Made by a program: the position numbers and the translations under genes. Source: Kribbella italica (lineage in GTDB: Bacteria > Actinomycetota > Actinomycetes > Propionibacteriales > Kribbellaceae). Taken from it: a DNA stretch of 64,000 bases. The stretch is taken from positions 3,162,001 to 3,226,000 of the forward strand of contig NZ_JACHMY010000001.1 of assembly GCF_014205135.1 (NCBI RefSeq), read 5' to 3'. The notes under the pieces are model-generated. The model was not told the origin of the DNA. It ran no database searches and saw nothing but the letters and a program-made list of their open reading frames with translations. Numbering within the stretch: the first letter of the stretch is position 1; the number at the start of each line of letters is the position of its first letter. Positions 43,534 through 47,738 of this stretch are shown in pieces.

Positions 43534-44142
43534 GTGACCGTTCCTACTCCGCGCCGGCCGATCCTGCCGGGTAACCAGCTGTTCGAGTCGTTGCCCGGTG
43601 CGGCGGCCGACCCGGCGAAGGTGGCCGAGGTGGCGCACCGGACCGCCGAGCTGCTGGTCCGGGGGGCTCGGTCGAGCGAGGACGCCGAGGTGGTCGCGCG
43701 GGTGGTCAAGCTGGCCGACGACTACGGTCTGGACGAGCTGGCCGACCTCTGGTCCGACGCACCCGCCGACTCCCTGCCCGGCACGCTCTGGCGGCTCTAC
43801 GTGCTGCGTTCCTGGGTGCACTCGAGCCCGGCGGACGTCGCCCGGGAGTACGCGACCGGCCGCGAGTACGCCGAGGTCCACGCGGTGGTGGCCGGCGTCG
43901 CCGACCCGCCCGGCCCGGACGAGGTGCGCGCGATGGTCGACGCCGTACTGCGCGGTGTGGCGACCGGCGACTTCGCGACCACGCTGGACCGCGCGGCGGC
44001 GTTCGCCCGGATCGTCGCGACCGGCCGGGCCCACCTGGCCGACGACGGGCACGAGCAGGTCCGGTCGGCGTCCAAGCTGGTCGAGATGGCCGACCAGCTG
44101 GCGACCGCGGCACGCACGGAGCGTGCCGGTCAGCTCTGGTAG
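43534..44142 (+). CDS. Conserved actinobacterial hypothetical protein
   Basis: 202-aa protein, function not recognised. Starts VTVPTPRRPILPGNQLFESLPGA; the body is predicted mostly alpha-helical (VAEVAHRTAELLVRG, ADDYGLDELADLWS, LWRLYVLRSWVHSSPADVAREYATG). It is acidic, without signal peptide or membrane segments. GTG 43534 was chosen because upstream sequence is the purine tract. Possibly followed on the same strand by the small RNA at 44244-44380. Confidence 0.7.
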   Translation: MTVPTPRRPILPGNQLFESLPGAAADPAKVAEVAHRTAELLVRGARSSEDAEVVARVVKLADDYGLDELADLWSDAPADSLPGTLWRLYVLRSWVHSSPADVAREYATGREYAEVHAVVAGVADPPGPDEVRAMVDAVLRGVATGDFATTLDRAAAFARIVATGRAHLADDGHEQVRSASKLVEMADQLATAARTERAGQLW

Positions 44143-44207
44143 TCCGGCGACGACACTTGCACAGATCCACCGTTGGTGCTAAGCGATCCCGGGCCGGAAA
44201 GCTCAAC

Positions 44208-44237
44208 AGGACAAGGCGTTTGGGCACCGGCTACAAT
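44208..44237 (+). promoter_or_regulatory. Sigma-70-type promoter for small RNA
   Basis: TACAAT (44232-44237) is a good -10 box; AGGACA (44208-44213) lies 18 bp upstream as a -35. Transcription would start near 44244, exactly where a strongly structured stretch begins. Confidence 0.6.
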
Positions 44238-44243
44238 GGTGCA

Positions 44244-44380
44244 GGTGTCGGGCCGCGGTAGCCCCGGGTCCCAAATATAGCCGCTACGAGCGGCCACGCG
44301 CCGTGAGGCGCTTCCCGGTCCGGCACCACAATCGTGACGAGAGCTGGGCGCCCCAGAGCGGGCGCCCAGCTCCTTTTTCT
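44244..44380 (+). ncRNA. Putative structured small RNA, unassigned family
   Basis: About 137 nt with no reading frame. GGTGTCGGGCCG (44244-44255) pairs with CGGTCCGGCACC (44316-44327) over 12 bp, allowing G-U pairs, closing a multibranch loop that contains hairpins GCCGC-TACGA-GCGGC (44280-44294) and GCGCC-GTGA-GGCGC. A promoter precedes it and a T-tract terminator ends it. I could not match it to tmRNA, SRP RNA, 6C RNA or tRNA. It could alternatively be the 3' UTR of 43534-44142. Confidence 0.55.
44341..44380 (+). terminator. Rho-independent terminator
   Basis: A 13-bp perfect stem GAGCTGGGCGCCC/GGGCGCCCAGCTC (44341-44353, 44360-44372) with a 6-nt loop is followed by CTTTTTCT. A T-tract is rare in this genome, so forward transcription surely ends here; the stem may also serve the convergent protease gene. 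Confidence 0.9.
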
Positions 44381-44393
44381 CAAGAAACTCCGT

Positions 44394-47300
44394 CTAGCGA
44401 ATTCCGTAGAAACGCTTCAGCACCTGCGTCACGCTCTTGCCCCCGGCATCGGTCACCTCGGTCTTCAGCGTGACGAACCCGGTCGCGGGCGTGTTGTCGA
44501 CCGTCGCGGTCACCTTCTTGCCGTTGTTCTTCACCGGCACCTCGACCCAGGTCGCGCCGTCGTCGTACGACGCCCAGACCTTCGCGCCCGTGATCCGCCC
44601 CGGCTGGTACCACTCCCCCGCGCCGACCGTGATCGAGACCGGGTAGTTCGCCACCTTCGGCGCTCGCCCGTTCGCGTCGACGTTCAGGTCGTAGTCCGGC
44701 CAGAGCAGCGGCAGCGCCTTGCCCGAGTCGGCCGCCGACGACTTCCAGCGCCAGCGCGTCTCGGCGTCGGTCGGCGACTCCCAGGAGTAGTCACCGCGCT
44801 GCCAGTGCATCAGCTTGTAGACCAGCTCCAGGTCGGTCGGCTGCGCCGGGACGTCCCAGTTGCCCTGCCCGAACCACCCGTACTCACCGAGCGAGACGCC
44901 GTTCGCGAGCAGCTCGGTGCCGCCCAGGTCGAGGAAGCCGCCCATCGAGAAGTGCCCCGGCTCGGTGTCGGACCAGGTCGGGAAGTTGCTCCACACCGTG
45001 TTACCGGTCCGCGCCGCCGGTACGACGGTGAGCCCGGTCGACTGGTTGCGGAGCATGCCCGGCCGCAGCCCCGCCTTCCACCAGGTCTCCTGGTGCCGGG
45101 TGCCCGCCTTGTACGCCTTGGCCGTCGACGTCATCAGCGTCGCGAACGGCCAGGCCATCGCGTCGGAGTGCCCGACCATCTGGCTGACCTTGGTGTTCTT
45201 CTCCGCCGTGACCAGGTGCTCGACCCGGTTCGGCGCGGCCACCTGACCCCGCTCGCCGGTCGGGATCAGGTTCAGGCTCCACGGGCGCCAGACATCGACG
45301 TACTCGGAGTAGGTGTAGTTCTTGCCCGGCGTGTAGTAGGTCGCGTCGATCGAGGCGAGCCCGCGGTCCTTCACCTTGTGCGTGGTGTTGCCCTTGACCT
45401 GCCCGGCGTGCGTGAAGGCGAGGCTGTAGAGGTACGGCGCCGGCGCCCAGTCGGGCGACTCCAGCTGCCAGCCCTCGACGACCTCGAAGGTGCCGCGCTT
45501 GGCCTTGGTCCCGGTGTCGGCGAGGTAGACCGCCTTGACCGAGGGGATGAAGCTGCGGCTGCTCGACAGCACCCAGTCGTCGACCACCCGGCCGTAGGTG
45601 AGGCTTCCGCCGCGGCGCTCGCTCGGCCGTTCGGTGACGACCTTGGTCTGGACGGCCTTGCGGGCGTCGTACGTGATCGTGGTGTTCTTCGTGAGCTTCA
45701 GCTCGGGGTCGCCGAGGAAGGTGTAGGACTCGACCAGCCCGTCCGCGCCCTCGGTCGCGACCGACGCGGCCAGCGAGTAGCTGCCGGCGCGCAGGTGCAG
45801 GGTCTGGTCGGCGCCCTCGAACCCGATCCGCTGCGCGGCGATGCTGTCCAGGTCGAAGACGTCCAGCGAGGTGATCGACGCGGCGGGCTTGCCGTTGCGG
45901 TCGATCAGCTTGACGGTGACGTCGACGTGCTGCGGCTCGAGGTAGAACCCGACCGGGGTGACGACGGTCCGTCCATCGTTGCTGGTAGCAACGATCCTTG
46001 CGCTGACCGCGCCGTACAGGCCGTAGTCGAGCTTGGCCGACGGGTCGATCTTCAGCGGGAGCGCGGCCGACTTGCCGGCCGGGACCTTCAGCGTGGTGAC
46101 GCCGAGCTGAACGGCCGACCGCGGCAGCGGCTTGCCGTTGTTGCCGCGGACGTCGGCGGAGAACCGGAGGGTGACCGGCGTCTTGCCGGAGTTGGTGTAG
46201 GTCAGCGGCTTGGTGACCTTCTCCGACGGCTTGTGCGGCCAGGCGAACGTGCCGAGGTCGGCCGTGCCCGGTCCGGTGACCTGCTGCGCGACGGCGTTGG
46301 CGACGTTCAGCTCACCGGCGCCCTGGTCGTAGACCCCGGTGGTCGACGCCGATCGCACGCTGCTCTGCAGGGCGGACTTGAGCTGCTGCCCGGTCCAGTT
46401 GGGGTGCTGCTGCTTGAGGATTGCGGCCGCGCCCGCGACGTGCGGCGTCGCCATCGACGTACCGCTCATGTCGGTGTACGCCGTGTCGCCGCGGCCGCCG
46501 GCCCGGGCGGCGGTGATGTCCACTCCGGGAGCGGCGATGTCCGGCTTCACCGCGTGGTTGCCCATCACGGGACCCCGGCTGGAGAAGTCGGCGGTCTTCG
46601 AGGTCAGGTCGGTGGCAGCGACGGTCAGCGCGGACGCCGCGCAGCCCGGGCTCGTGATCGTCTCGGACGGGCCGTACAGGTTGCCCGCGGCGACCACGAA
46701 CAGGACGCCGGAGGCGGCGCTGATCCGGTCGACGGCCTCGGCCATCGGATCGGTGCAGTCGACCGGCTCGGAGGTCCCGATGCTCATGCTGATCACGTCG
46801 GCGCCCTCGGCGACGGCCCACTCCATCCCGGCGATGATCCAGGACAGCGCGCCGCTGCCGGAGTCGTTCAGCACCTTGCCCGAGAGCAACTCGGCGCCGG
46901 GCGCGACGCCCTTGTTGCGGCCGCCCGACGCCGTACCGCGACCGGCGACCGTCGACGAGGTGTGGGTGCCGTGCCCGTCGTGGTCGGCGACGTCCGGGCT
47001 GTCGGTGAAGTTCTGCTGCGCCTTGACGGCACCGGCCAGGTCCGGGTGCTCGGCGTCCACACCGGAGTCCAGTACGGCGACCGTGGTGCCGGCGCCGTCG
47101 TACCCGGACCGCCAGGCCTGCGGAGCACCGACGTACGGGACGCTCTCGTCGAGGGTCTTGGTGACCTTCGCGTCCAGCCAGATCTTGTCCAGCTCGCGCC
47201 CGGCCGGGTCGGTCGGCGAGGTGAGCGCCCGCCACGTCTCGCGAGCCTGTGTCTTCTCGGTCCGCAGCGCCGAAGCGCCGACCGACGGCAGGGACCGCGT

Positions 47301-47738
47301 GCGCTCGGAGCCGGCCGGGACCGCCGGCTGGGACCGCGTTGTCGACTTGTAGGTGGTGATGACCGGCACGCGATCGGTGCCGGCGTCGTCGAAGCCTTGG
47401 CGGATCAGGCCGCTCACGTTGAACAGCGCGTCGTCCACCTTGCCGCTCTGGACGAGCTCGGCGGCGCTGTCGGGTACGACGTACAGGTCCTTGCCGACCG
47501 TCCGCGTCTCGTACCCGCTCGCGGAGGGGTCGGCGGCGACGAAGCGGACGTTGCTGCGGCCACCGCCGGCCGGGGTGAGCTGGACCTTGTCGCCGGTGAG
47601 CAGGGTGACGACCTTGGCGCCGTCGACGCCGAGCGGAAGACCAGGAGGAGGGTCCGCGCCCGGCGTGGCCGCGGCGGGGACGAGGGCGGTGGCGAGCAGC
47701 GAGGTGACGGCTGCGCCGACCAGGAAGCGGGAAAGCAT
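44394..47738 (-). CDS. Large secreted S8 (subtilisin-like) serine protease
   Basis: 1114-aa exoenzyme. Signal peptide residues 1-25. An inhibitor-like propeptide runs to about 200. The peptidase S8 domain (about 210-475) has catalytic Asp224 (AVLDSGVD), His256 (DGHGTHTSSTVAG), oxyanion Asn353 (AAGN) and Ser428 (GTSMATPHVAG). About 630 further residues have Fn3/Ig-like character (KPLTYTNSGKTPVTLRF) and end in VLKRFYGIR; they may bind substrate. It is divergent from the HTH regulator at 47887 and likely controlled by it. Confidence 0.92.
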   Translation of the reverse strand: MLSRFLVGAAVTSLLATALVPAAATPGADPPPGLPLGVDGAKVVTLLTGDKVQLTPAGGGRSNVRFVAADPSASGYETRTVGKDLYVVPDSAAELVQSGKVDDALFNVSGLIRQGFDDAGTDRVPVITTYKSTTRSQPAVPAGSERTRSLPSVGASALRTEKTQARETWRALTSPTDPAGRELDKIWLDAKVTKTLDESVPYVGAPQAWRSGYDGAGTTVAVLDSGVDAEHPDLAGAVKAQQNFTDSPDVADHDGHGTHTSSTVAGRGTASGGRNKGVAPGAELLSGKVLNDSGSGALSWIIAGMEWAVAEGADVISMSIGTSEPVDCTDPMAEAVDRISAASGVLFVVAAGNLYGPSETITSPGCAASALTVAATDLTSKTADFSSRGPVMGNHAVKPDIAAPGVDITAARAGGRGDTAYTDMSGTSMATPHVAGAAAILKQQHPNWTGQQLKSALQSSVRSASTTGVYDQGAGELNVANAVAQQVTGPGTADLGTFAWPHKPSEKVTKPLTYTNSGKTPVTLRFSADVRGNNGKPLPRSAVQLGVTTLKVPAGKSAALPLKIDPSAKLDYGLYGAVSARIVATSNDGRTVVTPVGFYLEPQHVDVTVKLIDRNGKPAASITSLDVFDLDSIAAQRIGFEGADQTLHLRAGSYSLAASVATEGADGLVESYTFLGDPELKLTKNTTITYDARKAVQTKVVTERPSERRGGSLTYGRVVDDWVLSSSRSFIPSVKAVYLADTGTKAKRGTFEVVEGWQLESPDWAPAPYLYSLAFTHAGQVKGNTTHKVKDRGLASIDATYYTPGKNYTYSEYVDVWRPWSLNLIPTGERGQVAAPNRVEHLVTAEKNTKVSQMVGHSDAMAWPFATLMTSTAKAYKAGTRHQETWWKAGLRPGMLRNQSTGLTVVPAARTGNTVWSNFPTWSDTEPGHFSMGGFLDLGGTELLANGVSLGEYGWFGQGNWDVPAQPTDLELVYKLMHWQRGDYSWESPTDAETRWRWKSSAADSGKALPLLWPDYDLNVDANGRAPKVANYPVSITVGAGEWYQPGRITGAKVWASYDDGATWVEVPVKNNGKKVTATVDNTPATGFVTLKTEVTDAGGKSVTQVLKRFYGIR

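Follow-up and report, generated by a model that had tools for sequence, protein, structure and literature searches.

To our knowledge, small RNAs that span an entire bacterial class are rare; in actinobacteria, we know of few conserved regulatory RNAs whose role is established, and of no textbook Hfq system. The 6S RNA takes the shape of a bubbled rod, and ANTAR targets require two hexanucleotide loops. Small RNAs with SigH promoters are said to have been described in Corynebacterium glutamicum by Mentz et al. in 2013, and scr2952 of Streptomyces coelicolor was reportedly described by Vockenhuber et al. in 2011. According to excerpts of PMC4046766, 44 small-RNA start sites of C. glutamicum have predicted SigH-type promoters, so small RNAs under SigH are not a new idea. 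The accessible text of PMC3489674 gives the SigH consensus of M. tuberculosis as G/TGGAAC/TA-16 nt-C/GGTT and the SigR consensus of S. coelicolor as GGGAATG/C-16 nt-C/GGTTG. Expression of scr2952 has been confirmed, and the RNA is conserved in more than half of the tested Streptomyces (excerpts of PMC8388888). Ms1, in turn, adjoins a HAD hydrolase gene (excerpts of PMC9130861).

The window analysed here is a 64,000-nucleotide (64 kb) stretch of the Kribbella italica genome. The initial annotation had proposed within it a novel small RNA gene with a good promoter, a 12-bp closing stem enclosing inner hairpins, and the only canonical T-tract terminator of the window, matching none of the common RNAs. 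The present analysis of the sequence supports a small RNA gene that is unknown to Rfam, and the RNA is probably an overlooked stress regulator. With the strong covariation of its closing stem, its presence in 79 of 138 sampled genera and its tie in many lineages to a SigR/SigH-type promoter, it would give direct and testable access to post-transcriptional regulation under thiol-oxidative stress.

Anatomy of the RNA gene

The RNA gene, its putative promoters and the adjoining genes are listed in Table 1. The RNA is predicted to measure ~84 nt, or ~135 nt including its terminator, and is presumably transcribed in Kribbella italica. The positions given in the initial annotation were confirmed. 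Its predicted start, ~44244, coincides with the first base of the closing stem, and the covariance-model match of this copy spans 44243-44329.

Table 1. Features at the RNA locus of the window
Feature	Positions	Strand	Basis
Promoter-like AGGACA-N18-TACAAT, housekeeping SigA-like -10	44208..44237	+	Scan; inside genus-conserved stretch
Possible second promoter further upstream, TTGCAC-N17-TAAGCG; weak	44157..44185	+	Sequence pattern
RNA proper, 84-nt closed structure	44244..44327	+	Fold and covariance model
Closing stem, 12 bp, 5' arm; partner 44316-44327; covaries in relatives	44244..44255	+	
Closing stem, 3' arm	44316..44327	+	Fold
Junction strand CCCCGGG-TCCCAA, conserved; A-rich linker runs on to 44279	44262..44274	+	
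Hairpin P2, GCCGC-TACGA-GCGGC	44280..44294	+	Fold
Hairpin P3, GCGCC-GTGA-GGCGC, GNRA tetraloop	44298..44311	+	Fold
Intrinsic terminator, 13-bp stem 44341-44372 then CTTTTT	44341..44379	+	
P0001, 202 aa, uncharacterised; adjoins the RNA upstream, not part of it	43534..44142	+	
S8 peptidase gene, convergent with the RNA	44394..47738	-	

The promoter-like site matches the consensus at 9 of 12 positions; it is the sole match between 43000 and 46000 (0.1 in shuffles) and one of two matches in a consensus scan of the whole 64 kb. By consensus the site is moderate, with a good -10 and a weak -35, and it was judged convincing because it is conserved in the genus rather than by its score. A loose pattern for the possible second promoter was found at 23 of 30 genus loci, a count taken without a background control. 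A lax terminator scan of the window returned 12 sites, no more than in shuffles (sum of means 16.1), and a stem longer than 10 bp followed by an unbroken T5 occurred at one of the 12 only, the terminator of the RNA. The claim of a single canonical T-tract terminator is therefore reasonable in this stricter sense, although the window holds 12 terminator-like sites by the lax scan. Matches to promoter and terminator consensus are by themselves little proof, with two promoter matches in 64 kb and terminators no commoner than in shuffles.

In an alignment of 30 same-genus loci, identity was ~88-100% per 10 columns over a stretch that starts ~38 nt ahead of the closing stem and takes in the whole closed structure, and it dropped to ~34-61% right after it, indicating that the conserved unit comprises the promoter and the closed structure without the terminator. 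Sequence 3' of the closing stem, terminator included, was not conserved in this alignment, and the terminator is the least conserved part of the RNA gene. A hairpin with a T-rich tail was present in just 5 of 83 copies of the window's sequence type. Of the 47 Streptomyces-type copies, 44 are followed by a strong hairpin, against a background of 25 in 376, and just 9 of the 47 have a T-rich tail.

Distribution of the RNA family

A blastn search with 44208-44385 yielded a match in 47 of 58 genomes, comprising all 37 genomes of the window's genus, its own among them, and 10 of 21 other members of the order. Two covariance models were then used, R1 built from 19 sequences and R2 from 101, and family membership was assigned on the closing stem, the CCCCGG junction strand, the P2 hairpin and a GNRA-capped P3. 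The RNA was found with R1 in 224 of 293 genomes of the order and with R2 in 244 of 394 genomes of the class, representing 79 of 138 genera; 150 of the 394 class genomes were without a match to R2. Phylum-wide, R2 matched 31 of 396 genomes, all within the class (31 of 38 in-class genomes), and none of the 358 genomes outside it under strict filters by which weak matches may be lost; R1 matched 29 of 396. The seven in-class genomes without a match in the R2 phylum scan all belong to one family, that of mycobacteria-like genomes (f7). The window copy scored 109.7 bits with R1 and 96.1 bits with R2 and carries all four family features; it was in both training sets, whose members match by construction. 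Most of the order- and class-wide matches lie outside the training sets.

Furthermore, a pattern scan of named genomes returned at least 120 loci. Among the matches listed, 80 titles were all actinobacterial, including Streptomyces, Kitasatospora, Cellulomonas, Brevibacterium, Arthrobacter, Rothia, Kocuria, Microbacterium, Nocardioides, Geodermatophilus, Gordonia, Nocardia, and a mycobacterium. The labels "Streptomyces-" and "mycobacteria-like" used here for relatives were derived from sequence type and neighbouring genes. By sequence and model matches, the RNA of the window is one copy of a structured RNA family found across the class Actinomycetes.

One IMG/VR viral contig carries the RNA. 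An origin as a prophage- or plasmid-borne element was considered and set aside: the IMG/VR copy sits beyond an integrase-like gene (by inspection) and a P0001 homologue, and therefore probably lies in bacterial flanking DNA. The RNA is also present at 85-89% identity, unannotated, in the fecal "Bacteriophage sp." records MT838127.1 and MT835541.1, which may be bacterial DNA. Among plasmid records, two from Rhodococcus hold partial matches.

Fold and covariation

The stretch 44240-44385, terminator included, folds with a minimum free energy of -79.1 kcal/mol (z = -5.0), and none of 200 shuffles was equally stable. The 12-bp closing stem with inner hairpins was thereby borne out, and all 12 of its pairs covary. 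Covariance in relatives, which the initial annotation had named as a check, was observed across 101 model-aligned sequences, an alignment of a sort that leans towards the structure of the model: 93.5% of cells pair over the whole structure, and 288 cells changed on both sides compared to 78.1 +/- 7.0 in shuffles and 30-84 with partners slid. Measured by pairs changed on both sides, the fold stands out less, with 15 of 26 pairs against 12.4 shuffled and 15 reached by 7 of 500 shuffles. The closing stem (12 of 12 pairs) and a single P2 pair (26 two-sided cells) supply the covariation, although the three outermost pairs of the closing stem fail in 17-25 of the 101 sequences. A MAFFT alignment of 19 sequences, built without fitting to the model, pointed in the same direction, with 17 two-sided cells against 5.9. 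The closing helix itself scored 12.4, compared to 8.1 with its arms swapped and 7.0 shuffled.

The two hairpins were examined in 214 distinct copies selected by a pattern that fixed CCCGGG and the G.GA letters of the loop. P2 arms were GCCGC/GCGGC in 156 copies, GTCGC/GCGAC in 55 and GGCGC/GCGCC in 3, so that three of the nine arm combinations allowed by the pattern are used, all complementary (214 of 214). The P3 loop is GTGA, GAGA or GCGA, a GNRA loop in all 214 with G.GA imposed by the pattern. Covariation says little on P3, because its inner four pairs barely vary. The pairing probability of P3 in the single-sequence ensemble averages only 0.62.

The invariance of CCCGGG in the 214 copies is uninformative, being imposed by the selecting pattern. 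CCCCGG is the safer junction core, because CCCCCGGACC and CCCCCGGTCC forms occur among the copies found by covariance model. Both G residues of the GG in CCCGGG are predicted to be paired (mean unpaired probabilities of 0.10 and 0.24), and the case for the complete CCCCGGG as a seed is weakened accordingly. YCCAA and the A-rich linker, in contrast, are predicted to be mostly unpaired (0.79-0.93). A CC..GG mini-hairpin of 2-3 bp is possible in the window, and its two-pair form could be made in 101 of 101 sequences; it is beyond the reach of covariation because its pairs barely vary. Correlated letters had suggested that the junction strand might touch the GNRA loop, an idea dropped on account of mixed cases. 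A protein-coding reading was likewise rejected: the stretch from CCCGGG to P2 ranges from 10 to 15 nt in length, and both the closing stem and P2 show compensatory changes. All three frames are open over ~90 nt in 56 of 214 copies, which by itself decides nothing on coding since the DNA is GC-rich.

Promoter type across the class

The motif GGAAT/C-N17-19-GTT stands ahead of the RNA in many lineages, at a spacing that is almost fixed. Its strict form, GGAAT-N17-19-GTT, was present in 73 of the 214 pattern-selected copies, compared to 10 of 11641 background windows. By sequence type, it was found in 14 of 15 GGGCCTC copies, 35 of 47 Streptomyces copies and 8 of 11 mycobacteria/Nocardia copies, with 14 of 58 in the GGGCTCC type and just 2 of 83 in the window's GGGTCCC type. 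In order to cover other families, 30 genomes were picked from the class-wide matches, and 25 of 29 new loci were tested; L269, L279, L288 and L296, with matches off the fixed offset, were left out. The GGAA[TC] form was present at 19 of these 25 loci found by covariance model, compared to 2 of 550 background windows. By the consensus sequences in PMC3489674 the motif matches the SigR/SigH thiol-oxidative stress promoter type, from which the promoters of similar ECF sigma factors are indistinguishable here. Judging from its spread, it may represent the older state.

The window copy lacks this promoter, and AGGACA-N18-TACAAT stands in its place; near relatives have TACACT-like -10 sequences where the window copy has TACAAT. 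As the strict stress promoter is absent from the window copy and from most copies of its own type (81 of 83) and of the GGGCTCC type (44 of 58), stress control is not general in the family and does not extend to the window copy.

Duplication and variants

Two copies of the RNA were found with R1 in 36 of 38 same-genus genomes. In the genome of the window the second, class-B copy lies on the minus strand at G000:C1:3336690-3336777 (L002, L302), where it precedes, at a distance of ~0.7 kb, a 16S rRNA gene of the same orientation. This copy has a GGAAT-N18-GTT promoter and is followed by a strong GC-rich hairpin (by inspection).

Other arrangements were observed in relatives. A long variant of ~113 nt with an extended P2 occurs as an extra copy in four Streptomyces-like genomes (L298-L301), where it has GGAAC-N18-GTT and a terminator-like hairpin (by inspection), and it was also seen in other families (L292, L293, L295, L297). 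A relative within the order (L047) carries tandem copies 182 bp apart, each with its own GGAAT/C-N18-GTT (by inspection). L048 (G029:C1:7692324-7692364) is a partial, degenerate extra copy with an altered junction strand, perhaps a decayed duplicate.

Neighbouring genes

A comparison of neighbouring genes was made for 121 loci, 120 from named genomes and one from the viral contig. A co-directional homologue of P0001, which shows DUF6895 similarity under the Pfam cut-off, lies upstream of the RNA in 43 of 121 loci and anywhere in 52 of 121. P0001 adjoins the RNA in Propionibacteriales and Micrococcales and is 41% identical to its homologue on the viral contig. Streptomyces loci have a HelD-like gene upstream, with scores under the NCBIfam cut-offs, and a malic enzyme gene downstream. 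A WhiB-type gene, presumably WhiB6, lies upstream in 4 of 8 mycobacteria-like loci (L074, L274, L086, L232; by inspection). A crude gene finder gave the nearest downstream gene the same direction as the RNA in 81 of 113 loci, and the nearest upstream gene in 86 of 115; the same gene finder placed the RNA within an open reading frame in 14 of 121 loci, which was taken as gene-finder error.

The co-directional downstream genes, together with a compact junction whose conserved unpaired strand resembles aptamers, would suit a cis-acting element such as a riboswitch or leader. No single downstream family was found, however: the gene is malic enzyme in Streptomyces and others elsewhere, and it is convergent in the window and in 7 of 8 mycobacteria-like loci. 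The convergent S8 peptidase gene in particular argues against a leader role for a downstream gene in Kribbella italica. Given also the strong hairpin after 44 of 47 Streptomyces-type copies, the terminator in the window and the RNA's own promoter, a cis-acting element is quite improbable.

The upstream side raises the question of an RNA derived or processed from the 3'-UTR of the preceding gene, with no role beyond mRNA stability, for which the frequent co-direction of that gene and the 43 loci with a P0001 homologue could be cited. This origin is very improbable, as promoters lie right before the closing stem at near-fixed spacing and are either background-controlled or genus-conserved, and the RNA persists while the upstream gene differs by lineage, the class-B copy having another neighbour again. 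Changing neighbours, a promoter of its own and the convergent S8 peptidase in the window all point to a free-standing RNA.

Proposed role

The explanation that best fits the whole, held at about even chances, is an ancient, class-wide small RNA with a stress promoter in many lineages, duplicated in Kribbella and acting in trans by base pairing. Gene anatomy, family membership, fold, distribution, promoter type and duplication are shown by the sequences; transcription in Kribbella italica, control by the sigma factor, the action in trans and the pairing are inferred. In lineages with an ECF-type promoter (the Streptomyces and mycobacteria/Nocardia types and most other sampled families), presence of that promoter suggests that the RNA is most likely made when an anti-sigma factor releases its sigma factor. 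After the duplication in Kribbella, one copy would have kept the stress-type promoter, and the window copy, with its housekeeping-type promoter, would be expressed constitutively. The closing stem of the folded RNA would enclose the junction strand CCCCGGG-YYCMA together with two hairpins, the second GNRA-capped, leaving an exposed C-rich/YCCAA strand that could pair with G-rich sites in mRNAs, and the hairpins might protect or anchor this strand.

The near-invariant hairpins exceed the needs of a simple seed small RNA and would also fit a protein-binding RNA. In that case the fold with its GNRA hairpin and junction strand would dock a conserved protein that is titrated or carried during stress in the manner of 6S/Ms1, candidates being RNA polymerase, HelD, a ribosome factor or another regulator. 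Both hairpins and the junction strand are almost fixed class-wide (part of this being set by the pattern behind the 214 copies), the Streptomyces copy adjoins the HelD-like gene, and 4 of 8 mycobacteria-like copies adjoin the WhiB-type gene (by inspection). Since neighbours are inconstant, however, helD or whiB6 may lie beside the RNA by accident, and an RNA polymerase RIP-seq study in S. coelicolor (excerpts of PMC11077062) names scr3559 and scr0792 as bound small RNAs and not scr2952. Protein binding is accordingly put forward as a tentative possibility, below the base-pairing small RNA.

Bolder, and rather unlikely, is the proposal of a core thiol-oxidative stress RNA that predates diversification of the class and whose hairpins and CCCCGG strand dock a component of transcription or translation. 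If that were true, the output of stress sigma factors would include, besides repair enzymes, a structural RNA able to redirect RNA polymerase or the ribosome; some lineages would have freed one copy from stress control to be constantly active.

Comparison with known RNAs

No Rfam 15 family reached its gathering threshold in the window, in agreement with the earlier statement that the RNA matches none of the common ones; the match to a known family that would have refuted the initial annotation was thus looked for in Rfam and not found. Among 23 related loci tRNA or rRNA matches were the only ones found. Sub-threshold matches were set aside, most of them resting on the terminator hairpin: Scr3202, Ms_IGR-7 and gyrA RNA scored 21.7, 14.6 and 17.8 bits against gathering thresholds of 52, 45 and 45, respectively. 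In searches of the open literature a description of a class-wide RNA of this kind was not found, which is weak evidence of absence.

Like 6S/Ms1 (scr3559, MTS2823), the RNA is free-standing, widespread in actinobacteria and closed by a long stem, but it is shorter, has a junction fold in place of a bubbled rod and lacks an Rfam match; no HAD hydrolase gene was found among the neighbours examined. ANTAR targets are likewise actinobacterial RNA with two adjoining hairpins, from which this RNA differs in its loops of 5 (or 3) nt and of 4 nt (GNRA) and in the closing stem around both hairpins. The SigH-promoter small RNAs of C. glutamicum are likened to it by promoter type, from their description only.

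The closest known relative is probably scr2952, a small RNA detected earlier but uncharacterised, to which the Streptomyces copy would correspond by position and naming. By its name scr2952 is expected in the gap between SCO2951 and SCO2952, a malic enzyme (excerpts of PMC7494193) and HelD (excerpts of PMC8655204), and the Streptomyces copies of the family lie between HelD-like and malic enzyme genes. The accessible text of PMC8388888, which concerns Streptomyces only, counts scr2952 among the RNAs in Rfam, yet the RNA in the Streptomyces loci tested is matched by none of the Rfam 15 families; RF02831 and RF02832 were rejected as its entries, being Scr2736 and Scr5676. The novelty claimed for the gene is thus upheld as regards Rfam, from which the family is missing and to which this RNA would supply it, and tempered by its membership in a class-wide family with a probably known Streptomyces relative. 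If scr2952 is the same RNA, the additions made here are its class-wide spread, fold, promoter type and duplication.
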